Source: Xestospongia bergquistia (Eukaryota > Porifera > Demospongiae > Haplosclerida > Petrosiidae). Taken from it: a stretch of DNA of 64,000 bases. Under the pieces are notes generated by a model. That model made no database searches and was not told where the DNA came from. It worked only from the letters and a program-made list of their open reading frames with translations. The translations under genes and the position numbers were made by a program. Shown here piece after piece: positions 1 through 44,372 of the stretch. Every line of letters starts with the position of its first letter. Within the stretch, counting starts at the first letter, position 1. The stretch spans positions 1,307,001 to 1,371,000 of the forward strand of contig OZ014421.1 in NCBI GenBank assembly GCA_963965975.1, in the 5' to 3' direction.

Positions 1-1060
1 CAGTGTTGTTGTATAGAGTGCAGTTATTTAAATCAATAGTGCCATTCCCATATGAATCAATGTACAACCCTCCTCCATAATGGGCTGCAGTATTTTTGAA
101 TATTGTGCAGTTACTAAACTCAATACTACCACCTCCATGCAAGACAATATCCACTCCTCCTGCTAACAGAGCAACATTATCATATACAGTGCAGTTAATA
201 AACTCAATACTACCACCTCCTAATGAAAACATCCCCATAGCTCCTCCAAACACTAGAGCAGTATTGTTGTACAAATTACAGTTACTAAGGTCAATACTGC
301 CATTCGCATACAAGCTAATATTTATATACATTCCTCCTCCATACCAAGCAGTGTTGTTGTATAGAGTGCAGTTATTTAAATCAATAGTGCCATTCCCATA
401 TGAATCAATGTACAACCCTCCTCCATAATGGGCTGCAGTATTTTTGAATATTGTGCAGTTACTAAACTCAATACTACCATCTTCATGTAAGACAATATCC
501 ACTCCTCCTGCTAACAGAGCAACATTATCATATACAGTGCAGTTAATAAACTCAATAGTACCACTTCCTAATGAAAATATCCCCATTCCTCCTCCGAACA
601 CTTGAGCGGTATTTTTGTATAAATCACAGTTACTAAGGTCAATACTGCCATTCCCATGCAATGTAATATCCATTCCTCCTCCATACTGAGCAGCTGTATT
701 GTTGTATAGAGTGCATTTACCTAAGTCAATACTGCTATTCCCATACAAGTTAATAAACATTCCTCCTCCATACCATGCAGCAGTATTGTTGTATAGAGTG
801 CAGTTATCTAATTGAATATTGCCATTCACATACGAGCTAATATCCATTCCTCCTCCATACCAAGCAGTATTGTTGTATAGAGTGCAGTTATCTAAGTGAA
901 TACTGCTATTCTCAAACGAATCAATGTACAACGCTCCTCCATACTGAGCAGTGTTGTTGCATATAGTGCAGTTATTAAACTCAATACTACCACCTCCAAA
1001 CAAGATAATACTCACTCCTCCCCCATACTGAGCAATATTGTTTGAAAACATACTATTTTC
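1..1060 (-). repeat. Coding beta-helix repeats with a 348-bp higher-order duplication
   Basis: Units of about 84-90 bp encode the GGG/NCTxYNN repeats of gene A. Positions 1-348 and 349 onward are near-identical for most of their length, giving a period of 348 bp (116 codons, four units). The in-frame block duplication shows growth by unequal exchange of several units at once. Confidence 0.85.
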
Positions 1061-1786
1061 TATGTTTATCTCAGCTTCATTATCATTACCATATCTCAAA
1101 TGTATGCCAGATCCTAAACCCAGTGTAAAATTTGACTTGAAAATATTAACTCTGGACAGTCTGTTAATTTTGTCATTATAGATTATATATACATTGCCTA
1201 CAAAAGTCTCTAGAGCTCCATTGTTAGCAAATGAGGAATTAGCAATTAATACATCATAAGCATTAAGAAGAAAAAGTCCATCACCTGAACTATTTTGGAC
1301 TGATACATATTCTAATGTGACATTTTTGATGTTAACAAAGTATAAGCTAACACTATAATATTGATGCCAGTTAAACTCACAGTTTGCTATTGTTAATGAT
1401 TTCAATAAGATATCACTGCTACTAGTAAATAGTATACCGGTTCTGTTGCTATCACTACACCTTATTACTGTGGTAGATTGCATAACTGTCTCATGGAAGC
1501 CTTGTTCTATATGACCCAGTCCCTGTAGAGTTATATTACTTACATTGCTGATATATAATATACCTTGTAGAGTATGAGTTCCCTCTAGGAAGTAGAAAAT
1601 CGCATCATCAGTGAAGTAAGATGCATTATCAGCAGTGTAGTAGGAGAGGTTGTGACAAGGTAGGTCAGTATAAGGGCAAGATTTTCCATTGGGAGCTGCA
1701 GAGACATAATACTCAGAAGCAGTAGCATATTCACTGTAGATATACAGTATAACTGATGTTATATAATAAATATGACACCAGCTCAT
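1..1786 (-). CDS. Array gene A: beta-helix repeat membrane protein, N-terminal 595 codons (partial)
   Basis: The frame is open from the ATG at 1786 to the left edge of the window, so the C-terminal half is missing. The start matches the conserved family start (Met-Ser-Trp-Cys-His-Ile-Tyr-Tyr) and has a GCCACC stretch just upstream. Residues 1-23 look like a signal peptide, with likely cleavage after Val-Thr-Ala. Residues about 24-240 are the conserved N-terminal domain. From about residue 243 to the edge there are at least 12 units of roughly 28 residues following the pattern S-I-x-F/L-x-N-C-x-I/L-Y-x-N-T-A-x-x-GGG-M/V-x-I, as in right-handed parallel beta-helix proteins. Intact relatives have only about 4-7 such units before the Cys-rich and membrane parts, so this copy is unusually expanded. 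A membrane domain beyond the edge is expected from the family but not seen. Function is unknown; a cell-surface role is inferred. Confidence 0.85.
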   Translation of the reverse strand, partial: MSWCHIYYITSVILYIYSEYATASEYYVSAAPNGKSCPYTDLPCHNLSYYTADNASYFTDDAIFYFLEGTHTLQGILYISNVSNITLQGLGHIEQGFHETVMQSTTVIRCSDSNRTGILFTSSSDILLKSLTIANCEFNWHQYYSVSLYFVNIKNVTLEYVSVQNSSGDGLFLLNAYDVLIANSSFANNGALETFVGNVYIIYNDKINRLSRVNIFKSNFTLGLGSGIHLRYGNDNEAEINIENSMFSNNIAQYGGGVSIILFGGGSIEFNNCTICNNTAQYGGALYIDSFENSSIHLDNCTLYNNTAWYGGGMDISSYVNGNIQLDNCTLYNNTAAWYGGGMFINLYGNSSIDLGKCTLYNNTAAQYGGGMDITLHGNGSIDLSNCDLYKNTAQVFGGGMGIFSLGSGTIEFINCTVYDNVALLAGGVDIVLHEDGSIEFSNCTIFKNTAAHYGGGLYIDSYGNGTIDLNNCTLYNNTAWYGGGMYINISLYANGSIDLSNCNLYNNTALVFGGAMGMFSLGGGSIEFINCTVYDNVALLAGGVDIVLHGGGSIEFSNCTIFKNTAAHYGGGLYIDSYGNGTIDLNNCTLYNNT

Positions 1787-5629: not shown

Positions 5630-5827
5630 CTAAAAGTTTTTGGGATCATCAGTGATATAAGATGCATTATCAGCAGTGTAGTAGGAGATGTCATGACATG
5701 GTAGGTCAATAGAAGGACAAAATACTCCATTAGGAGCTGCAGTGACATAATACTCAGAAGCAGTAACATATCCACTGTAGATATACAATATAACTGATGT
5801 TATATAATAGATATGACACCAGCTCAT
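5630..5827 (-). pseudogene. Array gene B: 5' stub of the beta-helix membrane protein family
   Basis: The 65-codon frame begins with the family signal peptide and matches gene E for about 58 codons, through Tyr-Ile-Thr-Asp-Asp. It then switches abruptly into non-coding array sequence and stops. The sequence just past the junction (AATTAATTAGGAAGCACTAA) is the same block that lies downstream of gene E near 21390. This points to an E-like gene from which about 4 kb (body plus 3' flank) was deleted. The upstream DNA is also E-like and lacks the E-box/GACGTC block. A secreted 40-residue product is possible but unlikely. Confidence 0.8.
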
Positions 5828-6388
5828 GATAGCAGAGTTTTTACGAACGAAATATTATGGGAGATGTCTTTTGTGTCAAAATGCACCTTCTATGATGAAA
5901 AAAAATGACTTATGATCTAATATATACCAGTCAAGAAAATTTCAAAGTCAAACTAGGTTAGTATGTAGTACAATAGTTATCAGAAAATCAATTAATGAAA
6001 AAATAGTCATTATTTAATTAACATAGTGAATAGGCTATTATGTACTCCATACATGTTTCTTATAGATTATCATCACTTTGGCATATGTCATGTGTCTGTT
6101 GTGACATGCAGCCACATGGTAAATAGAATAAGAGATTACTGCACATGTATGCACTTTTGCAATTGTAAATGAACTGTCCCTACATGTTTAAACATTAATT
6201 GTTTATTATAATAGAAAAAAAAAACTTTGTTCTTAATATTTTTTTAGCTAACAATGGCACAATGAAAAGGATATTGTAGCATTTGAATAAATCTGTTAGA
6301 ACAATACAACATCTTAATATTTTCTTACAAAATAATTACATAAATGACATGACAACTATACATGCAAATGTTGTCAGAATCAATAGTG
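5828..6388. other. Spacer between stub B and gene C
   Basis: The left part is the truncated promoter-proximal sequence of B, joined near 5900 to the GACTTATGATCTAATATATA module. The right part is the 3' flank of gene C, with TAGCTAACAATGGCACA and the poly(A) signal described separately. No gene is seen. Confidence 0.55.
6202..6207 (-). terminator. Candidate poly(A) signal of gene C
   Basis: TTTATT on the plus strand reads AATAAA on the coding strand, about 180 bp past the stop. The same hexamer occurs at a comparable place after E, F, G and H, which supports a functional role. Confidence 0.4.
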
Positions 6389-9300
6389 TCAATCATCTGT
6401 ATCAAACAGTGTTGATTCTCGTTTCATTTCTATTGACACCACTGACATAGTAAATTTCCTTTCACGAGGTTGTGGTTTTATTAAAGAAAGTTCCAAATCA
6501 TTAGAACTAGACAATGGTGGAGGTTTCTTGAATATATTCTTGACTTTTGTAATTGGTTGTTGCAGAGAAGAATTTATCAGACAATCCCAGACGTGATAGG
6601 ATATCAGCCGATCCCAGACTTGATAAAATATAATGCCACAGAATACAACAAATGATATTGATACTAAAACAATACTTGATGCATGTCCTTTTGAATCATT
6701 ATTGTCATTGGAAGTTTGTGCATTCATATAAGCCATAAACATGAGATTAAGAATGAAAAATTCTTCCAGAAAACCCATTGGATAAAGACGATATATTCCT
6801 TTCAAAATGTAATACATGAAGATAATGACAATTAGAAGAGATGTTAACACATCTAAGCTTTTAGTAGCCTCAGTATCTAAAGACACAACCAGTGCTAAGA
6901 TAAGACGAACTAGGAGTAAAAATCCAGTCCAAAAACGACACTTGTCTTTATATGGACCTCCATATGCATCAAAGAAAGGCTTCATATATGTTGAAAACTT
7001 TTGGTAACAACACATGTATTTTGATAGAGGTCCTTCGAATAATGGTATAGTAAGAAGGTAGAAGGTGTATGGAACAATAAATAAAATGAGTATAGCCAGA
7101 GAGAACAGGAACAATGGTATATGACAACCTTTTGCATATTGGACATTAGCATCAATGTACCATCTCAGTAATAATACAGTATTATTCTTATCATCAGTAC
7201 ATGGAATTTTGATAGAATAAAGAACCTGGAAAACAATGCGTATCAGTTTAGTGTAAGAAAGAAGGATCATAGTGGATAAGACTGGAATTGCTTGCCTTCC
7301 AACAAGTCGAACTGCTTTGCTAGAATATCGTAATAATATTATAGTAAATATTACAATAAGCCAAACATAGGCTGGAAAAACAAACTGAAGCCACATTTTG
7401 TTGCAAGAATCCATGTTACGGAAGAAACAAGTCTTAATACCTAGATCTAGATTGATCCAGGAAATGAACTGACTAAGAAAAGCCACAGAGTGTTTAGGAA
7501 AGAAGATGTGTTCGTATATTTTGACAACATTAACATAGAATATAAGTCCATTGATTGTACCCACAGACACTGTTAAGTTTAAAACAATAACAAAAGCTAC
7601 CAGTGCTATACCAGCTAAAGCAAATGGAATGATAAGGGCTATGTGGTCATTAGTACATTGTTCACAATGATTGTATCCTAACGTGAGACTGAATCCTTTA
7701 GAACATTGTCCGCAAAGTATGCCAGATCGACTATAAAGACATTGCTTGCTAGGATAGTTAAGTGTAAAACTAATATTACTCTCATTACAATAATGAAAGG
7801 GGCAGTTAGGATAAACAATAAGACAGTGTGAATTATTTTCATAACCAATCCACATATCACCATCTCTAGTTATAATTTGAGAGTTAATGTCACAAGTTAT
7901 GGAACCTGAAGTTAATTCAGGTCTGCAAGCACATTTGCCATTTGCTAATGGATACCCATTAGGACAGGGCTCAATAGCAACTTCAATGACTTTAGCATAA
8001 GGATCATATAAAGGTTCAATGATTGAACTATTAAGTGTAGCATAGACTTGTGTTGTGTTTAATGAAGGATTTATTCTTAATGTGAAGGTCACATTAGTAC
8101 AAATTGCATTTAGTCTATTGCTATGATATTGAATAATAGATGAATTATCTGATAAGCTCAATCTTATCACACCCTGCGTTAAGCTGTCTAAAATGCCAAC
8201 TGTACTTAGTGATACATTGACATAATACCCAGGTGTTACAGATATACTGACATTTGTAATAGAGCAATTAGACCAATTTGATTGACAAAAACACACTTGA
8301 ATAGGATCTGATGACACTACTGATTGACCTGTCTGTTGAGGATAGTGAAATAGGTGATCAAAGTAAAGTGTGTTTGTACAATCATCAATTTTACCACCAT
8401 ATAGGACATCACCAGATATGTCAGCTGTATTGTTGACAAAATATAACACTGTTTTAGTATCATTAGGATCATGATAAGGAATAACTTTAAAGGAACAGTC
8501 AGTGGTATTGTCAATAACAAGAGCTAGTGATACAAAGATTCCTCCACCTGACTTCCTGGCATGATTATTGATAAATGATATGTTTGTATTCTGTTTTAGT
8601 AATAATTGTGTGGATTTGTATAAAGCAATACCTCCACCATAAACGCTTAAATTGTCTACAAACATGTTATGTCCATTAAACGCTATTAGGCTCTTGTCAT
8701 CATATGATCTAATGTACATTCCACCTCCATAAGAGTGAGCAGTATTATTGTATATAGTACAATTAATATACTTGATATTACCACTTCCTAATGATATCAT
8801 CCACACTCCTCCTCCATCCTTTAGAGCAGTATTGTTGTATATATAGCAGTTATTAAGAACAATACTGCTATACGAATAAATATCCATTCCTCCTCCGTAC
8901 TGAGCAATATTGTTGTATATAGTGCAGTTACTAAACCCTATACTACCAATTCCAATAAAGTCAATATCCACTCCTCCTCCATATCTAGCAATATTGCTTG
9001 AAAACATGCTATTTTCAATAATTATCTCAGCTTCGTTATCATGATCACACCCCAAATATATACCATATCCTAAACCCAGTGTAAAATTTGAATCTAAAAC
9101 AGTAAAGCTGAACAATCTGCTAAACTGGTCATCAAAGATTATATATGCGTTACCTACAAAAGTCTCCAGATCTCCATTGTTAGCAAATGAGGAATTAGCA
9201 ATTATCCCATCATAAGCATTCTCAAGAAAGAGTCCATCACCTGAACTATTCTGGACTGATACATATTCTAATATGACACTATTGGTGTCAATAAAGTATA

Positions 9301-9742
9301 AGCTAACACTATAATAATGATGCCAGTAAAACCCACAGTTTGTTATTGTTAATAATTTCAATTGAACATCACTGCTACTAGTAAATAAAATACCAGATTT
9401 TTTCCTATCATTACACCTTATTACTGAGGTAGATTGCATAACTGTCTCGTGAAAGCCTTGTTCTATATGACCCAGTCCATGTAGAGTTATATTATTTACA
9501 TTGCTGATATTTAACATACCTTGTAAAATGTGAGTTCCCTCTAGGAAGTAGAAAATGGCATCATCAGTGAAGTAAGGTGCATTATCAGCAGTATAGTAGA
9601 AGAGGTTATGACATGGTAGGTCAGTAGAAGGACATGATTCTCCATTTGTAGTTGCAGAGACATAATACTCAGAAGCAGTAACATATCCACTGTAGATATA
9701 CAGTATAACTGATGTTATATAATAGATATGACACCAGTTCAT
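6389..9742 (-). CDS. Array gene C: beta-helix ectodomain, nine-pass membrane protein
   Basis: Single exon, 1117 residues, intact. Residues 1-23 are a signal peptide (cleavage near Val-Thr-Ala/Ser). Residues about 25-230 form the conserved N-terminal domain. Residues about 230-440 hold GGG-M-x-I and N-C-T-I-Y-N-N units of a right-handed beta-helix. Residues about 600-695 are a Cys-rich module with a C-P-x-G-Y-x-L motif, D-M-W-I-G-Y (about 631), C-P-F-H-Y-C and G-I-L-C-G-Q-C (about 680). Hydrophobic segments lie near 700-725, 726-741, 783-807, 817-841, 873-901, 935-955, 960-983, 990-1008 and 1018-1041. A D-A-Y-G-G-P-Y-K-D-K motif (about 929) precedes the sixth. With a cleaved signal peptide, nine spans would put the tail (1045-1117) inside the cell. 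Many N-x-S/T sites fit glycosylation. A receptor or channel-like role is inferred only. Confidence 0.9.
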   Translation of the reverse strand: MNWCHIYYITSVILYIYSGYVTASEYYVSATTNGESCPSTDLPCHNLFYYTADNAPYFTDDAIFYFLEGTHILQGMLNISNVNNITLHGLGHIEQGFHETVMQSTSVIRCNDRKKSGILFTSSSDVQLKLLTITNCGFYWHHYYSVSLYFIDTNSVILEYVSVQNSSGDGLFLENAYDGIIANSSFANNGDLETFVGNAYIIFDDQFSRLFSFTVLDSNFTLGLGYGIYLGCDHDNEAEIIIENSMFSSNIARYGGGVDIDFIGIGSIGFSNCTIYNNIAQYGGGMDIYSYSSIVLNNCYIYNNTALKDGGGVWMISLGSGNIKYINCTIYNNTAHSYGGGMYIRSYDDKSLIAFNGHNMFVDNLSVYGGGIALYKSTQLLLKQNTNISFINNHARKSGGGIFVSLALVIDNTTDCSFKVIPYHDPNDTKTVLYFVNNTADISGDVLYGGKIDDCTNTLYFDHLFHYPQQTGQSVVSSDPIQVCFCQSNWSNCSITNVSISVTPGYYVNVSLSTVGILDSLTQGVIRLSLSDNSSIIQYHSNRLNAICTNVTFTLRINPSLNTTQVYATLNSSIIEPLYDPYAKVIEVAIEPCPNGYPLANGKCACRPELTSGSITCDINSQIITRDGDMWIGYENNSHCLIVYPNCPFHYCNESNISFTLNYPSKQCLYSRSGILCGQCSKGFSLTLGYNHCEQCTNDHIALIIPFALAGIALVAFVIVLNLTVSVGTINGLIFYVNVVKIYEHIFFPKHSVAFLSQFISWINLDLGIKTCFFRNMDSCNKMWLQFVFPAYVWLIVIFTIILLRYSSKAVRLVGRQAIPVLSTMILLSYTKLIRIVFQVLYSIKIPCTDDKNNTVLLLRWYIDANVQYAKGCHIPLFLFSLAILILFIVPYTFYLLTIPLFEGPLSKYMCCYQKFSTYMKPFFDAYGGPYKDKCRFWTGFLLLVRLILALVVSLDTEATKSLDVLTSLLIVIIFMYYILKGIYRLYPMGFLEEFFILNLMFMAYMNAQTSNDNNDSKGHASSIVLVSISFVVFCGIIFYQVWDRLISYHVWDCLINSSLQQPITKVKNIFKKPPPLSSSNDLELSLIKPQPRERKFTMSVVSIEMKRESTLFDTDD
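6575..6628 (-). repeat. 27-bp in-frame tandem duplication in the tail of gene C
   Basis: Two imperfect 27-bp copies (6575-6601 and 6602-6628) duplicate nine codons after the last membrane segment, giving two W-D-R/C-L-I boxes where D has one W-D-R box. The duplication is absent from the other members. Confidence 0.8.
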
Positions 9743-14662: not shown

Positions 14663-17600
14663 TCAGTGTTTGTCATCTGTATCAAACAGTATTGATTCTC
14701 GTTTCATTTTCACTGACACCACTGACATAGTAGATTTCCTTTCACGAATAGGAGATCTTGAAGGCATTAAAGAAACTTCCAAATCATTAGAACTAGACAA
14801 TGGTGGAGGTTTCTTGAATATATTCTTGACTTTTGTAATTGGTTGTTGCAGATAAGACTTTAAAATACGATCCCAAACATGATAAAATATAATACCACAG
14901 AATACAACAAATGATATTGATACTAAAACAATACTTGAGACTTGTCCTTTTGAATCGTAATTATGATTCGTAGTTTGTACATTCATATAAGCCATAAACA
15001 TGAGATTAAGAATCAAAAATTCTTCCAGAAAGCCCAAAGGAAAATATCGATATATTCCCATAAAAATGTAATGCATGAGGATAATGACAATTAGAAGAGA
15101 TGTTAACACATCTAAACTCTTAGTAGCCTCAGTATCTAGAGATACAACCAGTGCTAAGATAACACGGACTAGGAGTAAAAATCCAGTCCAAAAACGACAC
15201 TTGTCCTTATATGGACCTCCATATGCATCAAAGAAAGGCTTCATATATGTTGACAACTTTTGACAGCAACACATGTACTTTGATAGAGGTCCTTCAAATA
15301 ATGGTATAGTAAGAAGGTAGAAGGTGTATGGAACAATAAATAAAATGAGTATAGCCAGTGAGAACAGGAACAATGGTATATGACAACCTCTTGCATATTG
15401 AACATTAGGATCAATGTACCACCTCAGTAATAATACAGTATTATTCTTATCGTCAGTACATGGAATTTTGATAGAATAAAGAGCCTGGAAAACAATGCGT
15501 ATCAGTTTAGTGTAAGAAAGAAGGATCATAGTGGATAGGACTGGAATTGTTTGCCTTCCAACAAGTCGAACTGCTTTGCTAAAATATCGTAATAATATTA
15601 TAATAAATATTACAATAAGCCAAACATAGGCTGGAAAGACAAACTGAAGCCACATTTTGTTGCAAGAATCCATGTTACGATAGAAACAAGTCTTAATACC
15701 TAGATCTAGATTGATCCAGGAAATGAACTGATTAGGAAAAACCACAAAGTGTTTAGGAAAAAAAATTGGTTCATATAATTTGACAACATTAGCATAGAAT
15801 ATAAGTCCATTGACTGTACCCACAGACACTGTTAAGTTTAAAACAATAACAAAAGCTACCAGTGCTATACCAGCTAAAGCAAATGGAATGATAAGAGCTA
15901 TGTGGTCATTAGTACATCGTTCACATTGATTGTATCCTAACGTGAGACTGAATCCTTGAGAACATTGTCCACAAAGTATGCCAGATCGACTATGAAGACA
16001 TTGCTTGCTAGGATAGTTAAGTGTAAAACTAATATTACTGTTATTACAAAAATGGAAGGGGCAGTTAGAATAAACAATAAGACAATGCGAATCATTTTCA
16101 TAACCAATCCACATGTCACCATCTCTAGTTATAATTTGAGTGTTAATATCACAAGTTATTGAACCTGCATTTAATTCATGTCTGCAAATGCAAGTGCCAC
16201 TTACTAATTGTAAACCAATAGGACAAGGCTCAATAGTAACTTCAATAACCTTAACATAAGGGTCATATAAAGGTTCAATGATTGAAGTATTGAGTGTAGC
16301 ATACACTTGTATTTTGTCCAATGAAGTGTTTATTCTTAATGTGACAGCAACATTAGTACATATTGCATTTAGTCTATTAGTATTATATTGAACAATAGAT
16401 GAATTATCTGATAAGTTCAATTTTATCACACCTTGTGTTAAGCTGTCTAAAATGCCAACTGTAGCTAGTGATACATTGACATAATACCCAGGTGTTACAA
16501 ATAAACTGATATTTGTAATAGAGCAATTAGGTCTATTTGATTGACAAAAACACACTTGAATAGGATCTGATGACACTACTGATAGACCTGTCTGTTCAGG
16601 ATAGTAAAATAGGTGATCAAAGTAAAGTGTGCTTGTACAATCATCAATTTTACCACCATATAGGACATCACCAGATATGTCAGCTGTATTGTTGACAAAA
16701 TATAACACAGTTTTTGTATCATTAGGATAATGATAAGGAATAACTTTAAAAGAACAGTCAGTGGTATTGTCTACAACAAGAACTAGTGATACAAAGATTC
16801 CTCCACCTGACTTGCTGGCATGATTATTGACAAATGTTATGTTTGTATTTAGATTTAGTAATAATTGGGTCCATTTGTATAAAGCAATACCTCCACCATA
16901 AATGCCTGAATTGTTTACAAACATGTTATGTCCATCAAATGTAATTAGACTATTGTCACCATATGAAATAATGTACATTCCACCTCCATAAGACTGAGCA
17001 GTATTATTGTAAATAGTGCAATTAATATACTTGATATTACCACCTCCTAATGAAAACATCCACACTCCTCCTCCATCCTCTTGAGCGATATTGCTGTATA
17101 TATAGCAGTTATTAAGAACAATACTACTATACGATCTAATATACATTCCTCCTCCATGATGAGCAGTATTATTGTATATAGTGCAGTTACTAAACTCAAT
17201 ACTACCACTTCCATACAAGGCAATATCCACTCCTCCTCCAGACCAAGCATCATTGCTTGAAAAAATACTATTTTCAATGATTACATTAACTTCATTATCA
17301 TGATCACACCTCAAATGTATACCATATCCTAAACCCATTGTAAAATTTGATTTCAAAATAATAACTCTGGATAGTCTGCTAATCTGGTTATCATAGATTA
17401 TAAATGCATTGCCTAGAAGAGTCTCTCGAGCTCCATTATTAACAAATGAGGAATTAGTAATTAACACATTATAAGGATTGAGAAGAAAGAGTCCATCACC
17501 TGAACTATTCTGGACTGACACACATTCTAATGTGACATTATTGATGTTACTAATGAATAAACTAACACTATAATCTGGATGCCAATAAAACCCACAGTTT

Positions 17601-18001: not shown

Positions 18002-18225
18002 GACAGCAGCGTTTTTAACGAATGAAATTGTATGGGAGATGCCGTTTGCGTCAAAATTAACCTTTTACACTCAGCAAAAGTCGACTATTTCCGAAATAGA
18101 TCGTTATTAGCGTTTGCATAAAACACAAGACGTCGCCGTTTTTATTTAAGCAACAATGTCTACTTTGAAGTTTTAAGAACGACACGTGGTGGTTACATTA
18201 TCTAGAAATGATTTGCTTTATCACC
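18002..18225 (-). promoter_or_regulatory. Conserved upstream block of gene D
   Basis: Contains GACGTC at 18129-18134 (128 bp before the ATG) and CACGTG at 18183-18188, in the same order and spacing as A and C. A promoter role is inferred. Confidence 0.5.
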
Positions 18226-25200: not shown

Positions 25201-25607
25201 CAGTTTGCTATTGTTAATAATTTCAATTGAACATCATTGCACTTAGTAAATTGTATACCACATTTTTTTCTATCACTACACCTTATTACTGAGGTAGATT
25301 GCATAACTGTCTCATGAAAGCCTTGTTCTATATGGCCTAGTCCCTGTAGAGCTATATTACTTACATTGCTGATATTTAATATACCTTGTAGAATATGAGC
25401 TCCCTCTAGGAAGTAGAAAATGGCATCATCAGTGAAGTAAGATGCCTTATCAGCAGTGTAGTAGGAGAGGTCATGACATGGTAGGTCAATAGAAGGACAA
25501 GGTAATCCATTAGGAGCTGCAGTGACATAATACTCAGAAGCAGTAACATATTCACTGTAGATATACAGTATAACTGATGTTATATAATAGATATGACACC
25601 AGTTCAT
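22284..25607 (-). pseudogene. Array gene E: beta-helix membrane protein with one in-frame stop
   Basis: The frame is continuous from the ATG at 25607 to the stop at 22284 (1108 codons) except for a TGA at 23982-23984, codon 542. Intact relatives have AGA (Arg) there, in the N-R-L-N-A-I-C motif just before the Cys-rich module, so a single A-to-T change made the stop. Upstream are the signal peptide, N-terminal domain and beta-helix. Downstream the Cys-rich module, all membrane segments and the tail are preserved without frameshift, so the lesion looks young. The truncated product would be a secreted beta-helix ectodomain without membrane anchor. The E-box/GACGTC block is missing upstream. It may be a recent pseudogene, a segregating allele, a sequencing error or a secreted form. 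Confidence 0.85.
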
Positions 25608-25755
25608 GATAGCAGAGTTTTTATGAACGAAATAGTATGGGAGATGTCTTTTGTGTCAAAGTGCACCTTCTATGATGATAAAAAATGACTTACGATCTAG
25701 TATATACCAGCCTATTCTGTATTTACCAGTCGAGAAAACTTAACATAAACCATAA

Positions 25756-27167: not shown

Positions 27168-30100
27168 TTAGTCATCTGTATCAAACAATATTGATTCTCG
27201 TTTCATTTCCACTGACACCACTGACATAGAGGAAGATTTGCTTACACCAATAGGGGATCCTGAATTCATTAAAGAAGTTTGCAAATCATTAGAACTAGAA
27301 GTTTGTGGAGGTTTCTTGAATATCTTCTTGACTTTTGTAATTGGTTGCTGCAAACAAGACTTCAAAAGACAATCCCAGACATGATAAAATATAATACCAC
27401 AGAGTACAACAAATGATATTGATACTAAAACAATACTTGACACTTGTCCTTTAAAATTTTCCTTGTCGTTTGAAGTTCGTACATTCATATAAGCCATAAA
27501 CAAGAGGTTAAGAATGAAAAATGCTTCGAGATAATCCAAAGGAAAATGTCGATATATTCCCTTTAAAAGGATATATATGAACATAATTACAATCAGAAAA
27601 GATGCTAACACATCCAAACTGGCAGTAGCATCAGTATCTTGAGATACAACCAGTGCTAAGATGACACGAATTAAGAGTAAGAACCCAGTCCAAAAACGAT
27701 ACTTGTCCTTATATGGACCTCCATATGCATCAAAGAAAGGCTTCATATATATTAAAATTTTTTGGTAACAACATATATACTTTGACAGAGGTCCTTCAAA
27801 TAATGGTATAGTAAGAAGGTAGAAAGTATATGGAGCAATAAGTAAAATGAGTACTGCCATTGAGAACAGGAACAATGGTATATGACAACCTCTTACATAT
27901 TTGACATTAGCATCAATATACCACCTCAATAATGTGATATTATTATTCTTACTATCAGTACATGTAATTTGTGTGGAATGAAGAACCTGGAAAACTGTGC
28001 GTATCAGTTTGGTATAAGAAAGAAGGATCATAGTAGCTAGTACTGGAATTGCTTGCCTTCCAACAAGTAGAACTGCTTTTCTAGAATATCGCAGCAATAT
28101 TATAATGAATATTAGAATAAGCCAAATATAGGCAGGAAAGACAAATTGAAGCCACATTTTACCGCAAGAATCCATACCATGAAAGAAACAAGTCTTAATA
28201 CCAAGATCTAAATTAAGCCAGGAAAGGAACTGACTATGAAAAGAAACAGTGCCTTTAGGAAAGAAGATGGGTTCGTATATTTTCACAACGTTAGCATAGA
28301 ATATAAGTCCATTGATTGTACCCACAGATACAGTTAAGTTTAAAGCAATGACAAAAGATACCAGTGCTATACCAGCTAAAGCAAATGGAATGATTAGAGC
28401 TATGTAGTTATTAGTACATTGTTTACATTTATTGGAACCTAACATGAGACTGAATCCTTCAGCACATTGTCCACAGAGCATACCAGTTCGATTATAAAGA
28501 CATTGTTTGCTAGAATAGTTAAACATAAAACTAACATTATCGGTATTACAATAATGAAAAGGACAGTTAGAATGAACAATAAGACAGTCTGAATTATTTT
28601 CATAACCGATCCACATATCGCCATTTCTTTTTATAATTTGGGTGTTAATATCACAGGTTATTGAACCTGAATTTAATTCAGGCCTGCAAACACAAATACC
28701 ATTTACTAATGGATAACCTTTAGGACAGGGCTCAATAGTAACTTCAATGACTTTAGCATAAGGGTCATATAAAGGTTCAATGATTGAACTATTAAGTGTG
28801 GCATAGACATGTGTTGTGCTCAAAGAAGAGTTTAGACTTAATGTGAAGGTTACATTAGTACAAATTGCATTTAGTCTAATGTTAATAAATTGCACAATAG
28901 ATGAGTTATCTGATGAGTTCAATTTTATCACACCTTGTGTTAAACCACCTAAAGTACCTACTGTAGCTAGTGATACATTAATATGAATTCCAGGTGCTGA
29001 AAATATACTGATGTTTGTAATAGAGCAATTTTGTCTGCCTGATTCACAAAAACACACTTGAATAGGATCTGATGACACTACTGATAGACCTGTCTGTTGA
29101 GGATAGTAAAATAGGTGATCAAAGTAAAGTGTGCTTGTACAATTATCAATTTTACCACCATATAGGACATCACCAGATATGTCAGCTTTATTGTTGACAA
29201 AATATAACACAGTTTTAGTATCATTAGGATAATGATAAGGAATAACTTTAAAAGAACATTCATTGGCAATGTCTATAGCAAGAACTTTATCATGATATAC
29301 AAAGATTCCTCCACCTGATTTACTAGCATGATTATTGATAAATGATATGTTTGCATTCTGATTTAGCACTATTTGGGAGAAATCATATAAAGCAATACCT
29401 CCACCATAAATGCCTGAATTGTTTACAAACATGTTTTTTTGCTTAAATGTTATTACACTATTGTCACCAACTAAAGCAGTTGTATTGTGATTACAAACTT
29501 TAGTTTGCTCAAAAGTAATATTAAAAATGCTAATTAATACCAGAGCAGATTGATATCCTTTTTGTGGTGCATCTGGTCTATCAAATATTTTATTGTAATG
29601 AAATGAAACATTTTTGAAATGAAAGCTACTTGTTAAAGTTGGAGTTGCTCGAAAGGAAAGAAGAAACAAACCTGATGCAAAGTATGCAGTATTGTTAGAT
29701 ATAGTGCAGTTTTTGAACACATTGCTACCACTTTCTCCATACAAACTAATGTACATTCCTCCTCCTTCAGACTGAGCAGTATTATCATATATAAAGCAGT
29801 TAATATATATAATATATCCACTTACTAAGGAGAGCATCCGCACTCCTCCTGCATTAATTTCAGCAGCATTGCTACATATATTGCAGTTACTAAATTCAAT
29901 ACTGGCATCCCCATCTAATCTAATATACAGTCCTCCCCCAAACTTAGCAGTATTGTTACATATATGACAATTACTAAATTCAATACTACCGCCTCCAAGC
30001 AATCGAATGTCTACTCCTCCTCCATAATAACCAATATTGTGTGAAAAAATACTATTTTCAATGAATACATCAGGTTTATTATCATTATCAGACCACAAGT

Positions 30101-30777
30101 ACATACCATATCCTAAGGCCAATGTAAAATTTGAATTTGAAATATTAGAGCTGAACACTCTGTTAATCTGGTCATCAAAGATCATATATGCATTGCCTAC
30201 AAAAAACTCATGACCTCCGTTGTTAGCAAATGAGGAATTAATAATTATCAGATTATTAGTATTGTGAAGAACGAGTCCATCACCCAAACTATACACTTTC
30301 CAAGACAGCACTATTGATGTTAAGAAAGTGTAAGGTAACACTATAATATTGATTCCGTTTAAATCCACAGTTTGTTATTGTTAGTGATTTCAATACAACA
30401 TCATTGCTACTAGTAAATTGTATACCATTAACACTATTGCTATCACTACACCTTATTACTGAGGTAGATTGCATAACTGTCTCATGGAAGCCTTGTTCAA
30501 TATGACCCAGTCCCTGTAAAGTTATATTACTTATATTGCTGATGCTTAATACTCCTTGTAGAGTATGAGTTCCTTCTTGGAAGTAGAAGATGGCATCATT
30601 AGTGAAGTAAGATGCACTATCAGCAGTATAATAGGAGAGGTTGTGACAAAGTAAGTCAGCAGTAGGACATGATTCTTCATTAGGAGCTGCAGAGACATAA
30701 TACTCAGAAGCAGTAACATATCCACTGTAGATATACAGTATAACTGATGTTATATAATAGATATGACACCAGCTCAT
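27168..30777 (-). pseudogene. Array gene F: beta-helix membrane protein, frameshifted
   Basis: The first frame starts at 30777 with the family signal peptide and runs 162 codons to a stop at 30289. The rest continues in another frame from about 30300 to 27168 with the beta-helix, Cys-rich module, membrane segments and tail intact. Aligned with gene C near 9265-9305, F lacks a net 11 bp around 30290-30310, which explains the shift. The deletion removes the end of the conserved V-S-V-Q-N-S-S-G-D-G segment. F belongs to the longer subfamily with G and H, having the extra C-T-I-S-N-N / ASGL segment of about 90 residues before the last beta-helix units. An internal start at 30368 would lack the signal peptide. 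It is probably a pseudogene; an assembly error is possible. Confidence 0.85.
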
Positions 30778-33834: not shown

Positions 33835-36800
33835 TCAGTTTTTGTCATCTATATCAAACAATATTGATTCTCGTTTCATTTCCACTGACACCACTGACGT
33901 AGAAGTAGATTTACTTACACCAACAGTGGATCCTGAATGCATTAAAAGAAGTTCTAAATTATTAGAACTAGAAGTTTGTAGAGGTTTCTTGAATATCTTT
34001 TTGACATTTGGAATTGATTGATGCAAACGAGACTTTAACAGACGATCCCGGACATGATAAAATATAATGCCACAGAATACACCAAATGATATTAATACTA
34101 AAACAATACTTGATACTTGACCTTTTGAATGGTCATTGTCATTTGAAGCTTGCACGTTCAAATAAGCCATAAACATGAGGTTAAGAATGAAAAATTCTTC
34201 CAGATAATCCATAGGATAATATCGATATATTCCCTTAGAAATGAGATAATTTAATATAATGACAATTAGAAGAGATGTTAACACATCCAGACTGGCATTG
34301 GTTTCAGTATCAAGAGACACAACCAGAGCTAATATAACACGAATTAGGAGCAAGAATCCAGTCCAAAAACGACGTCTGTCCTTATATGGACCTCCATATG
34401 CATCAAAGAAAGGCTTCATATATATTAAAAACTTTTGGTAGGAACACATATACTTTGATAAAGCTCCTTCAAATAATGGTATAGTAAGAAGGTAGAAAGT
34501 GTATGGAATAATTAGTAAAATGAGTACAGCCAGTGAGAACAGGAACAATGGTATACGACAACCTCTTAGATATTCGACATTAGCATCAATGTACCACCTC
34601 AGTAATAAGACAGTACTATTCTTACTATCAGTACATGAAATTTGTTTGGAATGAAGAACCTGGAAAACAGTGCGTATCAGTTTGGTATAAGAAAGAAGGA
34701 TCATAGTGGCTAGTACTGGTATTGCTTGCCTTCCAACAAGTCGAACTGCTTTGCTAGAATATCGTAATAATATTATAATAAATGTTACAATAAGCCAAAC
34801 ATAGGCAGGGAAGACAAACTGAAGCCACATTTTACCGCAAGAATCCATTTTATTATAGAAACAAGTCTTAATTCCTAGATCTAAATTGATCCAGGAAATG
34901 AACTGACTAAGAAATGGTATAGGACCATTAGGAAAGAAGATGGGTTCATATATTTTGACAACATTAGCATAGAATATAAGTCCATTAATTGTACCCACAG
35001 ACACCGTTAAGTTTAAAGTAATGACAAATGCTACCAGTGCTATACCAGCTAAAGCAAATGGAATGATAAGAGCTATGTAGTCATTAGTACATTGTCCACA
35101 TTGATTGGAACCTAACATGAGACTAAATCCTTTATAACATTGTCCACAGAGTACACCAGATCGATTGTAAAGACATTGTTTGCTAGGATAGTTAAGTGTG
35201 AAATTAACATTGCTGTCAGTGCAATAATGGAAGGGGCAATGAGGATGATGAACAATAAGACCATGTGAGTCATTTTCATAACCAATCCACATATCACCAT
35301 TTCTAGTTATAATTTGAGTGTTAATATCACAAGTTATTGAACCTGAATTTAATTCAGGCCTGCAAACACAAAAGCCATTTACTAATAGATAACCATTAGG
35401 ACAGGGCTCAATAGTAACATCAATGACTTTAACACAAGAGTCATATAAAGGTTCACTGATCGAAGTTTCAAGTGTAGTATAGACTTGTGTTGTGTCCAAT
35501 GAAGGTTTTGTTCTTAATGTGAAGGTTACATTAGTACAAATTGCATTTAGTCTATTATTATTATATTGAACAATAGATGAATTATCTGATGCGTTCAATT
35601 TTATAACACCCTCTGTTAAGCCATTTGAAATACCAACTGTAGCTAGTGATACATTAATATCATTTCCAGGTGTTGTAAATACACTGATGCTTGTAATAGA
35701 GCAATTTTGTTTGTTTGATTCACAAAAACATACTTGAATAGGATCTGATGACACTACTGATAGACCTGTCTGTTGAGGATAGTAAAATAGGTGATCAAAA
35801 TAAAGTGTGCTTGTACAATTATCAATTTTACCACCATATAGAACATCACCAGATATGTCAGCTGTATTGTTGACAAAATATAACACTGTTTTAGTATCAT
35901 TAGCATCATGATAAGGAATAACTTTAAAGGAACACTCTGTGGCTATGTTTACATCAAGAACCTGATTATGATATACAAAGATTCCTCCACCTGACTCACT
36001 GGCATGATTATTGATAAATGTAATGTTTGCATTTTGATTTATTAATATTTGGGAGGAATCATATAAAGCAATACCTCCACCATAAATGCCTGAATTGTTT
36101 ACAAACATGTTATTTCTGTCAAATGTTATTAGACTATTGTCCCCAAGTAAACCAGTTGTGATATGATTGCTAATTTCAATTTGTTTAAATGTAACATTAT
36201 TAACATTTATTATTAACACAGCAGAGTGATATCCTTTTTGTTGTCTATTTGGCCAATTGATTACTTTATTGAAATGAAATGACACGTTTGTGAAATGAAA
36301 GCTACTTTTTAAAGTTGAAGTTGTTCGAATTGAATGGAGAGCCAAACCTGATGCAATGTAAGCAGAGTTGTTGGATATAGTGCAGTTACTGAACACATTG
36401 CTACCACTTTCTCCATATAAACTAATGTACATTCCACCTCCTTCAGACTGAGCAGTATTATTATATATAGTGCAGTTGATGAACTCAATATTACCACTTC
36501 CTAATGTAACCATTCTTACTCCTCCTCCATCCACTTCAGCAGTATTGTTGTGTATACTGCAGTTGCTAAATTCAACATTCTCATTCACTGATCTAATATA
36601 CACTCCTCCTCCATACCAAGCAGTATTGTTGTATACAGTGCAGTTACTAATCTCAATACTACCACCTCCATGCAATATAATACTTACTCCTCCTCCATAC
36701 CATGCAATATTGTTTGAAAACATACTTTTTTCAATCATTACATCAACTTCATTATCATTATCACACCACAAATACATGCCATATCCTGAAGCCAATGTAA

Positions 36801-37458
36801 AATTTGATTTCAAAATAAATAATCTGAACAGTCTGTTAATCTGGTCATCATACATTATATATGCATTGGCTACAAAGGCTCTATAAGCTCCATTATTAGC
36901 AAATGAGGAATTAACAATTACCAGATCATTAGCATTGACAACGAAAAGTCCATAATCTGAACTATTCTGGACTGATACATATTCTAATGTTACACTACTG
37001 ATGTCAAGAAAGTATAAGCTAGCATTATGATGAAAATGCCAGTTAAACCCACAGTTTGCTATTGTTAATGATTCCAATACAACATCACTGCTACTGATAA
37101 ATTGTATACCAGTTCTGTTACTATTACTACACATTATTACTGAGGTGGATTGCATAACTGTCTCATGAAAGCCTTGTTCTATATGACCCAGTCCCTGTAG
37201 AGTTATATTACTTACATTGCTGATGCTTAATACACCTTGTAGAGTATGAGTTCCTTTTTGGAAGTAGAAGATGGCATCATTAGTGAAATAAGATGCATTA
37301 TCAGCAATATAGTAGGAGAGGTTATGACATGGTAAGTCAGTAGAAGGACATGATTCTCCATTAGGAGCTGCAGAGACATAATACTCAGAAGCAGTAACAT
37401 ATCCACTGTAGATATACAGTATAACTGATGTTATATAATAGATATGACACCAGCTCAT
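33835..37458 (-). CDS. Array gene G: long-form beta-helix, nine-pass membrane protein
   Basis: Single exon, intact, 1207 residues from the ATG at 37458. An in-frame ATG at 37539 would add 27 residues, but these would bury the signal peptide and every other member starts at the Met-Ser/Asn-Trp-Cys-His site, so the inner start is preferred. Order: signal peptide (1-23), N-terminal domain, beta-helix units (about 240-400), a C-T-I-S-N-N / ASGL segment of about 90 residues without GGG that C, D and E lack, a last beta-helix stretch, Cys-rich module with W-I-G-Y near 725 and C-G-Q-C near 770, membrane segments from about 792, and G-P-Y-K-D-R near 1025. The tail ends in M-K-R-E-S-I-L-F-D-I-D-D. Its closest relative is H. 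Confidence 0.9.
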   Translation of the reverse strand: MSWCHIYYITSVILYIYSGYVTASEYYVSAAPNGESCPSTDLPCHNLSYYIADNASYFTNDAIFYFQKGTHTLQGVLSISNVSNITLQGLGHIEQGFHETVMQSTSVIMCSNSNRTGIQFISSSDVVLESLTIANCGFNWHFHHNASLYFLDISSVTLEYVSVQNSSDYGLFVVNANDLVIVNSSFANNGAYRAFVANAYIMYDDQINRLFRLFILKSNFTLASGYGMYLWCDNDNEVDVMIEKSMFSNNIAWYGGGVSIILHGGGSIEISNCTVYNNTAWYGGGVYIRSVNENVEFSNCSIHNNTAEVDGGGVRMVTLGSGNIEFINCTIYNNTAQSEGGGMYISLYGESGSNVFSNCTISNNSAYIASGLALHSIRTTSTLKSSFHFTNVSFHFNKVINWPNRQQKGYHSAVLIINVNNVTFKQIEISNHITTGLLGDNSLITFDRNNMFVNNSGIYGGGIALYDSSQILINQNANITFINNHASESGGGIFVYHNQVLDVNIATECSFKVIPYHDANDTKTVLYFVNNTADISGDVLYGGKIDNCTSTLYFDHLFYYPQQTGLSVVSSDPIQVCFCESNKQNCSITSISVFTTPGNDINVSLATVGISNGLTEGVIKLNASDNSSIVQYNNNRLNAICTNVTFTLRTKPSLDTTQVYTTLETSISEPLYDSCVKVIDVTIEPCPNGYLLVNGFCVCRPELNSGSITCDINTQIITRNGDMWIGYENDSHGLIVHHPHCPFHYCTDSNVNFTLNYPSKQCLYNRSGVLCGQCYKGFSLMLGSNQCGQCTNDYIALIIPFALAGIALVAFVITLNLTVSVGTINGLIFYANVVKIYEPIFFPNGPIPFLSQFISWINLDLGIKTCFYNKMDSCGKMWLQFVFPAYVWLIVTFIIILLRYSSKAVRLVGRQAIPVLATMILLSYTKLIRTVFQVLHSKQISCTDSKNSTVLLLRWYIDANVEYLRGCRIPLFLFSLAVLILLIIPYTFYLLTIPLFEGALSKYMCSYQKFLIYMKPFFDAYGGPYKDRRRFWTGFLLLIRVILALVVSLDTETNASLDVLTSLLIVIILNYLISKGIYRYYPMDYLEEFFILNLMFMAYLNVQASNDNDHSKGQVSSIVLVLISFGVFCGIIFYHVRDRLLKSRLHQSIPNVKKIFKKPLQTSSSNNLELLLMHSGSTVGVSKSTSTSVVSVEMKRESILFDIDDKN

Positions 37459-40580: not shown

Positions 40581-43500
40581 TTAGTCATCTATATGAAACA
40601 ATATTGATTCTCGTTTCATTTCCACTGACACCACTGACGTAGAAGTAGATTTACTTACACCAACAGTGGATCCTGAATGCATTAAAAGAAGTTCTAAATT
40701 ATTAGAACTAGAAGTTTGTGGAGGTTTCTTGAATATCTTTTTGACATTTGTAATTGATTGATGCAAACGAGACTTTAACAGACGATCCCGGACATGATAA
40801 AATATAATACCACAGAATACAACAAATGATATTGATACTAAAATAATACTTGACACTTGTCCTTTACATTTTTCCTTGTCGTTTGAAGTTTGTACATTCA
40901 TATAAGCCATAAACATGAGGTTAAGAATGAAAAATTCTTCCAGATAATCCAAAGGATAATATCGATATATTCCCTTAGAAATGCGATAATTGAATATAAT
41001 GACAATTAGAAGAGATGTTAACACATCCAGACTGGCATTAGCTTCAATATCTAGAGACACAACCAGAGCTAATATAACACGAATTAGGAGCAAGAATCCA
41101 GTCCAAAAACGACGTCTGTCCTTATATGGACCTCCATATGCATCAAAGAAAGGCTTCATATATATTAAAAACTTTTGGCAGGAACACATATACTTTGATA
41201 AAGCTCCTTCAAATAATGGTATAGTAAGAAGGTAGAAAGTGTATGGAACAATAAGTAAAATGAGTACAGCCAGTGAGAACAGGAACAATGGTATATGACA
41301 ACCTCTTAGATATTCGACATTAGCATCAATGTACCACCTCAGTAATAAGACAGTATTATTCTTACTATCAGTACATGGAATTTGTTTGGAATGAAGAACC
41401 TGGAAAACAGTGCGTATCAGTTTGGTATAAGAAAGAAGGATCATAGTGGCTAGTACTGGTATTGCTTGCCTTCCAACAAGTCGAACTGCTTTACTAGAAT
41501 ATCGTAATAATATTATGATAAATATTAGAATAAACAAAACATAGGCTGGAAAGACAAACTGAAGCCACATTTTACCGCAAGAGTCCATTTTATTATAGAA
41601 ACAAGTCTTAATTCCTAGATCTAAATTGATCCAGGAAATGAAATGACTAAGAAAACGAACAGGGCCTTCATTAAAGAAGATAGGTTCATATATTTTGACA
41701 ACATTAGCATAGAATATAAGTCCATTGATTGTACCCACAGACACAGTTAAGTTTAAAGCAATGACAAAAGCTACCAGTGCTATACCAGCTAAAGCAAATG
41801 GAATGATAAGAGCTATGTTGTCATTAGTACATTGTTCACAATTATTGGAACCTAAGATGAGACTGAAACCTTCAGAACATTGTCCACAGAGTACTCCTGA
41901 TCGATTGTAAAGACATTGTTTGCTAGGATTGCTAAGTGTGAAATTAACATTACTGTCAGTACAATAATGGAAGGGGCAGTTAGAATTAACGATAAGACAG
42001 TGTGAATCATCTTCATAACCAATCCACATCTCACCATCTCTTGTTATAATTTGAGTGTTAATATCACAAGTTATTGAACCTAAATTTAATTCAGGCCTGC
42101 AAACACAAATGCCATTTACTAATGGATACCCATTAGGACAGGGCTCAATAGTAACTTCAATGACTTTAGTATATGGGTCATTCAAAGGTTCACTGATCGA
42201 AGTTTCAAGTGTAGTATTGACTTGTGTTGTGTCCAATGAAGGTTTTATTCTTAATATGAAGGTTATATTAGTACAAATTGCATTTAGTCTATTGTTATTA
42301 TATTGAACAATAAAAGAATTATCTGATGAGTTCAATCTTATCACACCCTGTGTTAAACCATCTAAAGTACCTACTGTAGCTAGTGATACATTGATATCAA
42401 TTCCAGGTGTTGAAAATATACTGATGTTTGTAATAGAGCAATTTTGTCTGTTTGTTTCACAAAAACATACTTGAATAGGATCTGATGACACTGTTGATAG
42501 ACCTGTCTGTTGAGGATAGTGAAATAGATGATCAAAGTAAAGTGTGTTTGTGCAATCATCAATTTTACCACCATATAGGACATCACCAGATATGTCAGCT
42601 GTATTGTTGACAAAATATAACACTGTTTTAGTATCATTAGGATCATGATGAGGAACAACTTTAAAGGAACAGTCAGTGGTAATGTCTTCATCAAGAACCT
42701 GATTATGATATACAAAGATTCCTCCTCCTGACTCACTGGCATGATTATTGATAAACGTAATCTTTGTATTTTGATTTATTAACAATTGTGAGTAATGATA
42801 TAAAGCAATACCTCCACCATAAATGCCTGAATTGTTTACAAACATGTTATGTCTATCAAATGTTATTAGACTATTGTCCCCAAGTAAACCAGTTGTGTTA
42901 TGATTACTAACTACAATTTGATTAAATGTAACATTATTAACATTCATTATTAACACAGCTGATTGAACTCTTTTTTGTTGTCTATTTGGCCCATTGATTA
43001 CTTTATTGAAATAAAATGACACGTTTGTGAAATAAATACTACTTGTTAAAGTTGAAGTTGTTCGAATTGAATGGACAACCAAACCTGATGCAAAGTATGC
43101 AGTATTGTTTGATATAGTGCAGTTACTGAACACATTGCTACCAATTTCTCCATACAAACCAATGTACACTCCACCTCCTTCAGACTGAGCAGTATTATCA
43201 TATATAGTGCAGTTGATGAACTCAATATCACCACTTCCTAATGTAACCATTGTTACTCCTCCTCCATTCACTTCAGCAATATTGTTGTATATATTGCAAT
43301 TGCTAAATTCAACATTGTCATTCATTGATCTAATATACACTCCTCCTCCATACCAAGCAGTATTGTTATATACAGTGCAGTTACTAATCTCAATACTAGC
43401 AACTCCATGCAATATAATACTTACTCCTCCTCCATTCACTTCAGCAATATTATTGTATATATAGCAATTGCTAACTTCAATATTGACATTCCAATATGAT

Positions 43501-44372
43501 CTAATATACACTCCTCCTCCGTACCAAGCAGTATTGTTGTATACAGTGCAGTTACTAATCTCAATACTACCACCTCCATGCAATATAATACGTACTCCTC
43601 CTCCATACAATGCAATATTGTTTGAAAACATACTATTTTCAATAATTACATCAATTTCATTATCTTTGTCACACCACAAATACATGCCATATCCTAAAGC
43701 CAGTGTAAAATTTGATTTCAAAATAAATAATCTGAACAGTCTGTTAGTCTGGTCAGCATAGATAATATATGCATTAGTTACAAAGGCCCTATAAGCTCCA
43801 TTATTAGCAAATGAGGAATTAACAATTACCAGATCATTAGCATTGATAAGAACAAGTCCATAATCTGAACTATTCTGGACTGATATATATTCTAATGTTA
43901 CATTATTGATGTCAAGAAAGCATAAGCTAACATTATGATGTAGATGCCAGTTAAACCCACAGTTTGCTACTGTTAATGATTCCAATACAACATCACTGCT
44001 ACTGATAAATTGTATACCAGTGAACTTTCTGTTGCTATCCCTACACATTATTACTGAGGTAGACTGCATAACTGTCTCATGGAAGCCTTGTTCTATATGA
44101 CCCAGACCTTGTAGAGTTATATTACTTACATTACTGATACTTAATATACCTTGTAGAGTATGAGTTCCTTCTTGGAAGTAGAAGATGGCATCATTAGTGA
44201 AGTAAGATGCATTATCAGCAATATAGTAGGAGAGGTTGTGACATGGTAGGTCAGTAGAAGGACAAGATTCTCCATTAGGAGCTGCAGAGACATAGTACTC
44301 AGAAGCAGCAACATATCCACTGTAGATATACAGTATCACTGATGTTATATAATAGATGTGACACCAGCTCAT
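40581..44372 (-). CDS. Array gene H: long-form beta-helix, nine-pass membrane protein
   Basis: Single exon, intact, 1263 residues from the family ATG at 44372. An in-frame ATG at 44432 adds 20 residues ahead of the signal peptide and is not favoured. Layout is as in G, but the beta-helix has two more units from a 171-bp tandem duplication. The Cys-rich module has W-I-G-Y near 785. Membrane segments start near 853, and the G-P-Y-K-D-R motif precedes the sixth segment. The tail ends M-K-R-E-S-I-L-F-H-I-D-D, with His replacing the Asp found in G. H is the last member of the array, facing away from the kelch-kinase gene at 48674. Function is unknown; a surface recognition role is inferred. Confidence 0.9.
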   Translation of the reverse strand: MSWCHIYYITSVILYIYSGYVAASEYYVSAAPNGESCPSTDLPCHNLSYYIADNASYFTNDAIFYFQEGTHTLQGILSISNVSNITLQGLGHIEQGFHETVMQSTSVIMCRDSNRKFTGIQFISSSDVVLESLTVANCGFNWHLHHNVSLCFLDINNVTLEYISVQNSSDYGLVLINANDLVIVNSSFANNGAYRAFVTNAYIIYADQTNRLFRLFILKSNFTLALGYGMYLWCDKDNEIDVIIENSMFSNNIALYGGGVRIILHGGGSIEISNCTVYNNTAWYGGGVYIRSYWNVNIEVSNCYIYNNIAEVNGGGVSIILHGVASIEISNCTVYNNTAWYGGGVYIRSMNDNVEFSNCNIYNNIAEVNGGGVTMVTLGSGDIEFINCTIYDNTAQSEGGGVYIGLYGEIGSNVFSNCTISNNTAYFASGLVVHSIRTTSTLTSSIYFTNVSFYFNKVINGPNRQQKRVQSAVLIMNVNNVTFNQIVVSNHNTTGLLGDNSLITFDRHNMFVNNSGIYGGGIALYHYSQLLINQNTKITFINNHASESGGGIFVYHNQVLDEDITTDCSFKVVPHHDPNDTKTVLYFVNNTADISGDVLYGGKIDDCTNTLYFDHLFHYPQQTGLSTVSSDPIQVCFCETNRQNCSITNISIFSTPGIDINVSLATVGTLDGLTQGVIRLNSSDNSFIVQYNNNRLNAICTNITFILRIKPSLDTTQVNTTLETSISEPLNDPYTKVIEVTIEPCPNGYPLVNGICVCRPELNLGSITCDINTQIITRDGEMWIGYEDDSHCLIVNSNCPFHYCTDSNVNFTLSNPSKQCLYNRSGVLCGQCSEGFSLILGSNNCEQCTNDNIALIIPFALAGIALVAFVIALNLTVSVGTINGLIFYANVVKIYEPIFFNEGPVRFLSHFISWINLDLGIKTCFYNKMDSCGKMWLQFVFPAYVLFILIFIIILLRYSSKAVRLVGRQAIPVLATMILLSYTKLIRTVFQVLHSKQIPCTDSKNNTVLLLRWYIDANVEYLRGCHIPLFLFSLAVLILLIVPYTFYLLTIPLFEGALSKYMCSCQKFLIYMKPFFDAYGGPYKDRRRFWTGFLLLIRVILALVVSLDIEANASLDVLTSLLIVIIFNYRISKGIYRYYPLDYLEEFFILNLMFMAYMNVQTSNDKEKCKGQVSSIILVSISFVVFCGIIFYHVRDRLLKSRLHQSITNVKKIFKKPPQTSSSNNLELLLMHSGSTVGVSKSTSTSVVSVEMKRESILFHIDD
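43321..43662 (-). repeat. 171-bp coding tandem duplication in gene H
   Basis: TACCAAGCAGTATTGTT and its surroundings occur near 43351 and again near 43522, a period of 171 bp or 57 codons. This equals two beta-helix units and accounts for the length difference between H and G. Confidence 0.8.

Follow-up and report, generated by a model that had tools for sequence, protein, structure and literature searches.

A tandem array of beta-helix proteins with a multi-pass membrane half in the sponge Xestospongia bergquistia, and its possible likeness to the fungal Flc/Pkd2 proteins

A 64,000-nucleotide stretch of the genome of the sponge Xestospongia bergquistia (contig OZ014421.1, positions 1,307,001 to 1,371,000; hereafter the window) carries on its minus strand, at 2-44372, a tandem array of genes for a family of large membrane proteins. 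Each complete protein combines a right-handed beta-helix ectodomain built of repeated rungs, a cysteine-rich (Cys) module and a membrane half of about nine predicted helices. The family, the array, the architecture, the variation in rungs and the uneven constraint along the protein are shown by sequence or by prediction. We infer the kinship of the membrane half to transient receptor potential (TRP) proteins, the type of ligand, the signalling and the role in recognition. The best explanation, to be held tentatively, is that of an amplified, rung-variable surface receptor or channel, a tandem sponge family with a TRP-like signalling half.

A comparison of two full members with the window by tblastn identifies seven long head-to-tail copies, m1 to m7, and one 5' fragment, which agrees with the eight head-to-tail members counted in an earlier note on this sequence (Table 1). 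The start codons are at 1786, 9742, 18001, 25607, 30777, 37458 and 44372, the last being the position at which the earlier note ended the array. The common architecture which that note ascribed to each full member holds, but only four of the copies in the window (m2, m3, m6 and m7) are complete and unbroken. Each of these has a single open frame, 3,336 to 3,789 bases in length, and therefore no intron appears to be needed. The truncated m1 is continued by a relative, P0003 (1920 residues; longest contig 1,476,315 bases). The interrupted m4 may be a pseudogene, a variant or a sequencing error. Gain and loss of copies, also proposed earlier, is evident inside the array from duplicated units and broken copies. 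The duplication units take in intergenic DNA: 13789-18067 and 21355-25672 are 85.8% identical over 4,356 columns.

The first 100 base pairs (bp) of the coding sequence (for example, 9643-9742) are 93-98% identical among the seven copies. Identity is 65-72% directly upstream and 73-94% over the next 300 bp. The synonymous divergence (dS) over the first 25 codons is zero in six of the ten pairs of m2, m3, m4, m6 and m7. Such a conserved start is reminiscent of families in which the leader is fixed and the mature part varies.

The array is not due to chance because the membrane half of m7 matches at least 3,666 proteins at E <= 0.001 (7,992 candidates scored). A second search, the query length of which restricts it to shorter proteins, gives at least 1,000 matches (7,999 candidates). 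The best 120 relatives of each search were listed, 239 distinct proteins over both. Among the matches listed are three proteins of the demosponge Amphimedon queenslandica at 40, 42 and 52% identity, and 21 of the 120 listed for the m7 membrane half have a longest contig of 618,158 bases, presumably one contig. Relatives outside sponges may exist beyond those listed; no relative was confirmed in the viral contigs, prokaryote genome contigs and plasmids searched. The family is real, large and apparently unnamed, and most likely belongs to sponges. The idea of an undescribed multi-copy family stands, as no description of such a family was found in the literature searched, outside which most subscription journals lie. 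The Ephydatia genome paper describes tandem expansions, for example of metabotropic GABA receptors, and a diversification of TRPA and TRPML; the word 'helix' is absent from its main text (PMC7385117). The words helix, transmembrane and receptor are absent from the accessible text of a paper on the Amphimedon graft transcriptome (PMC5450542).

The architecture was predicted with AlphaFold2 for m2 (66 sequences; mean predicted local distance difference test score, pLDDT, 82.8; predicted template modelling score, pTM, 0.56) and for the membrane half of m7 alone (pLDDT 88.5, pTM 0.84). The m2 model runs from an N-terminal helix through the right-handed beta-helix and a beta domain to the Cys module and the membrane helices. 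The signal peptide called earlier is retained as a hydrophobic N-terminus, on which the call is based, but the hydropathy passes the cut-off in m7 and not in m2. The right-handed beta-helix is upheld by the predicted fold and by Pfam: the four members scanned reach between 39.1 and 68.2 bits with PF13229 (Beta_helix), whose cut-off is 25.9. In fold comparisons the ectodomain matches carbohydrate-active beta-helix enzymes best. H71, E94 and H98 (m2 numbering), which lie near the beginning of the helix, are kept in 79, 76 and 76 of 79 relatives and, judged from this conservation, are a possible functional site.

The Cys module and the DAYGGPYKD[KR] motif are present, as had been reported, in all copies that extend to them. 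Eleven cysteines of the module show little or no variation over 66 sequences, the most distant of which is 34% identical. The last lysine of the motif is replaced by arginine in m6 and m7. Variability along the protein is lowest in the 20-residue block 921-940, which contains the motif and has a mean entropy of 0.07 bits in the 25 close members of the 66. The earlier count of about nine spans is matched by nine helices in the AlphaFold2 model, predicted in m2 at residues 698-721, 729-747 (short), 779-806, 808-841, 874-897, 938-955, 959-979, 987-1012 and 1016-1040, but not by hydropathy with a single cut-off, which in both m2 and m7 resolves only seven peaks over the membrane half and misses the second and eighth helices. 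With the N-terminus outside, either number places the tail inside. This topology is weakly supported by charge: the long inner segments of m2 (898-937 and 1041-1117) contain 17 lysines or arginines per 117 residues and the long outer loops (748-778 and 842-873) contain 7 per 63. The outer loop 842-873 has two cysteines and one sequon, but the tail and the predicted inner loop 722-728 have sequons as well. In 106 of 120 and 71 of 119 relatives of the two lists, the last residues of the tail are RE-x-hydrophobic-hydrophobic, an ending which we take to resemble an endocytic dileucine-type signal.

The rungs of the pectin-lyase-like beta-helix are 28-30 residues long and have a common consensus (66 segments). 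When LCGxC is used as the boundary between the ectodomain and the membrane half in all 79 full-length relatives, the part before it ranges from 675 to 1,683 residues and the part after it from 419 to 467. Two relatives that are identical after LCGxC are three single-rung insertions or deletions apart. In the two pairs compared in detail, the ectodomains differ by complete rungs, singly or in runs. The earlier proposal of a variable ectodomain on a steadier membrane half is borne out by these lengths and by the concentration of near-allelic differences in the ectodomain. The near-allelic comparisons comprise two pairs, with 49 and 2 differences, in which the partner belongs to the other haplotype or to another animal. 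Between m2 and P0015, 37 of 590 ectodomain residues differ versus 5 of 353 membrane-helix residues (Fisher p = 2.6e-4). Between m7 and P0001, which are 99.84% identical, both of the differences are in the ectodomain. The longest contigs of P0001 and P0015 both have 213,437 bases.

Uniform purifying selection along the ectodomain was not found; the constraint along the protein is uneven. The ratio of nonsynonymous to synonymous substitution (omega) was estimated according to Nei and Gojobori with a codon bootstrap, pooled for m2-m3 and m6-m7 and separately for m4-m5. The pooled omega is 0.63 (0.49-0.80) in the ectodomain (residues 26-590), 0.48 (0.29-0.94) in the Cys module, 0.38 (0.27-0.51) in the membrane helices and 2.04 (0.93-7.38) in the tail. 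The corresponding values for m4-m5 are 0.75 (0.57-1.00), 0.50 (0.30-1.04), 0.41 (0.30-0.61) and 1.20 (0.56-3.47). The ectodomain and membrane intervals overlap slightly. Omega exceeds 1 in the forty-codon windows 1-40, 121-160 (1.50, pooled), 201-240 (1.05, pooled) and 1081-1117, values that are descriptive because the pooled pairs share sequences and no bootstrap was applied to them.

The membrane half is considered, with moderate confidence, to be built like the fungal TRP-like Flc/Pkd2 proteins (PF06011), in which an extracellular domain is followed by nine membrane helices and a cytosolic tail, a plan that is predicted for the sponge proteins too. The likeness is also expressed in the database name of two Amphimedon homologs. 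One report on fission-yeast Pkd2 describes a putative lipid-binding domain outside the cell, a membrane domain of nine helices, a cytosolic tail linked to internalisation, and the passage of Ca2+ under membrane stretch (PMC11277609). The one structure match that stands out is to a protein of a giant virus, which bears the name transient receptor potential ion channel (template modelling scores 0.38/0.45, E 3.6e-3). Unlike the fungal proteins, the sponge proteins have a beta-helix and a Cys module instead of the ML-like domain (PF14558), which is absent from the Pfam results for the members; they are tandemly amplified and have no Pfam or profile match to the fungal family. The resemblance in plan softens the earlier statement that no named class has this order of parts. 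A match of the whole architecture to a characterised family was not found in the searches made.

Several results weigh against a rung-variable receptor with a TRP-like half. PF06011 was not detected in 50 members at E <= 0.1, nor in P0160 and P0180 at E <= 10; the Flc2 sequence, as a control, scores 539.6 bits. The hhalign score of the membrane half with the Flc2-type profile is 19.2, compared to a median of 16.9 and a 95th percentile of 20.3 in 60 shuffles and to 19.2 for the reversed profile. Omega is significantly above 1 in no domain of m2-m3, m6-m7 or m4-m5. Because the profile score is within the null and equal to that of the reversed profile, the membrane half is not filed as a member of Flc/Pkd2. 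The best local profile alignment is colinear and pairs PYKDRRRFW with QFKADKFWW of Flc2, and is not significant. No Pfam family is above its cut-off in the membrane half, and the sequence search found no solved relative of it. A profile of 20 yeast Flc2-type proteins itself has zero matches in the PDB, and the missing PDB match of the membrane half is therefore uninformative.

The role of recognition receptors, as suggested in the earlier note, is plausible from sequence. On the best explanation, copies arise via duplication of gene-sized units, and the ectodomain grows or shrinks by whole-rung exchange within the coding repeat. The beta-helix would present a changeable stack outside the cell, probably for the binding of glycans or surfaces. 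Contact with the beta-helix, or a pull on it, would be transmitted through the Cys module to the TRP-like (Flc/Pkd2-type) membrane domain, which may then pass ions or signal otherwise, and the RE-x-L-L-like tail may control surface turnover. How sponges discriminate at the molecular level between self and non-self, and between symbiont and food, is a long-standing question, and the family is a concrete, testable candidate set. It also combines a solenoid ectodomain of varying repeat number with a multi-pass membrane domain that may be TRP-like. A more far-reaching version, which is doubtful, is that the sponge germline encodes a repertoire of single-exon surface channels, hundreds of them or more, whose beta-helix, remodelled by gain and loss of whole rungs, would read foreign or allogeneic glycans and gate the Flc/Pkd2-like TRP domain. 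If true, this would be an animal recognition system based on neither Ig, LRR nor SRCR modules, the specificity of which resides in beta-helix rung order and number.

The alternative that survives best, itself somewhat unlikely, is an adhesion protein or matrix-coupled mechanosensor, in which the beta-helix is a long, stiff spacer on shared matrix glycans and the rung number sets reach, not specificity. The whole-rung length changes beside a near-constant membrane half agree with a spacer, as do the common consensus of the rungs, the ectodomain omega below 1 and the stretch response of Pkd2 in the accessible part of its description (PMC11277609). The dense N-terminal substitutions outside the GGG-type rungs argue against it, together with the omega of windows 121-160 and 201-240 (from pooled pairs that are not independent), and the very large copy number would seem to exceed what a spacer needs. 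Even with a role in adhesion or mechanosensing, the size of the family warrants its naming in sponge genome annotation. That the tandem family gains and loses copies in a mostly neutral way, with relaxed constraint on the ectodomain and no repertoire function, is unlikely. This would account for the two broken copies among the seven long ones and for an ectodomain omega of 0.63-0.75 with no significant excess over 1, and the coding repeats are probably prone to slippage; a membrane-half omega of 0.38 with an upper limit of 0.51, however, does not fit neutral turnover, nor does the retention of the Cys residues and membrane motifs in relatives down to about 35% identity. A tethered polysaccharide-active enzyme, i.e. 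a lyase, epimerase or glycosidase that is anchored in the membrane and acts on glycans of sponges or microbes, is favoured by the fold matches of the ectodomain and by the conserved H71, E94 and H98, but is quite improbable given the wide variation of rung number, a conservation known from close relatives only and unmapped on a known active site, and no Pfam enzyme family above cut-off in four members (one member has Peptidase_C3 at 16 bits versus 22).

The sponge proteins can be compared to several known systems. To the plan of right-handed beta-helix carbohydrate-active proteins, such as AlgE4, the PL6 lyases and phage tailspikes, they add a multi-pass membrane half; unlike in those proteins, the rung number differs between paralogs and the catalytic residues are only candidates. 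They are similar to the aggregation factor of sponges, to SRCR and to further expanded families of invertebrate recognition proteins, as described in accessible parts of the literature, in being expanded or polymorphic surface or secreted proteins. A scan of four members at E <= 1 found no SRCR, NACHT, Ig or Calx-beta Pfam domain; Ig-type beta-sandwich chains are present among the Foldseek matches to the whole model, at E 0.015 and above. The chlamydial Pmp proteins, whose Chlam_PMP and POMP_repeat models match the sponge rungs, are bacterial autotransporters with a C-terminal beta-barrel translocator. Membership in these is not supported, because the sponge membrane half is predicted to be helical and the repeat models alone match. 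Fibrocystin (PKHD1) has a beta-helix ectodomain, with IPT/TIG, G8 or PA14 domains and one membrane pass, and polycystin-2, a separate protein, has a TRP membrane domain. The sponge protein unites a beta-helix with a half that may be TRP-like. It differs from fibrocystin in its several predicted membrane helices and in the lack of IPT/TIG, G8 and PA14 Pfam matches in four members.

Table 1. Coordinates in the window of the array copies, their repeats and the predicted parts of m2.
Feature	Coordinates	Strand	Description or basis
m1	2..1786	-	start codon, signal-type N-terminus, beta-helix; rest cut off by window edge
m1 rung-coding tandem repeats	1..1042	-	87 bp x 12.1; 348 bp x 2.3, 88% matches
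5' fragment of further copy	5641..5895	-	protein start only; blastn extent
m2	6389..9742	-	intact single-frame coding sequence, 1117 residues; structure modelled
m2 tail, predicted cytosolic	6392..6622	-	AlphaFold2, alignment
m2 membrane half, residues 698-1040	6623..7651	-	nine predicted helices; AlphaFold2
m2 DAYGGPYKDK motif, residues 925-934	6941..6970	-	predicted cytosolic, preceding sixth helix; alignment, AlphaFold2
m2 Cys-rich module, residues 593-697	7652..7966	-	DMWIGY, CPFHYC, GILCGQC; motifs, AlphaFold2
m2 post-helix beta domain, residues about 480-590	7973..8305	-	AlphaFold2
m2 right-handed beta-helix, residues about 60-400	8543..9565	-	Pfam, AlphaFold2, fold match
m3	14663..18001	-	intact coding sequence
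m4	22284..25607	-	full length; single in-frame TGA at 23982-23984
m5	27168..30777	-	two frames, overlap 30289-30374; frameshift near 30290
m6	33835..37458	-	intact coding sequence
m7	40581..44372	-	intact coding sequence, 1263 residues
m7 two-rung tandem repeat	43253..43606	-	171-bp repeat, 93% matches
Lone Cys-module fragment	62282..62455	-	outside array, upstream of gag-like open reading frame

The window also contains two tandem units on the plus strand, at 48671-52802 and 58265-61745, the main coding parts of which are 77-83% alike. Each consists of a kelch-repeat open reading frame followed by a second one, in which a Q/E-rich, coiled-coil-like stretch precedes a protein-kinase domain, and each unit may be one gene. 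Pieces have been exchanged in both directions, because a segment inside the beta-helix array (32732-33062) shares 89% identity with positions 49246-49579 of the kelch unit and the lone Cys-module fragment is located on the kelch-kinase side. Beside this fragment is a gag-like open reading frame (62850-63794, plus strand), which matches a retroviral-type aspartyl protease with 22 bits versus 20.7 and a zinc knuckle below threshold. Positions 61835-62101 form an imperfect palindrome, about 270 bp long, whose ends are of the TGTGACCTGATTTGC type. A repeat related to it (72%) is found between array copies at 25756-26090, and the two look like a small inverted-repeat mobile element.

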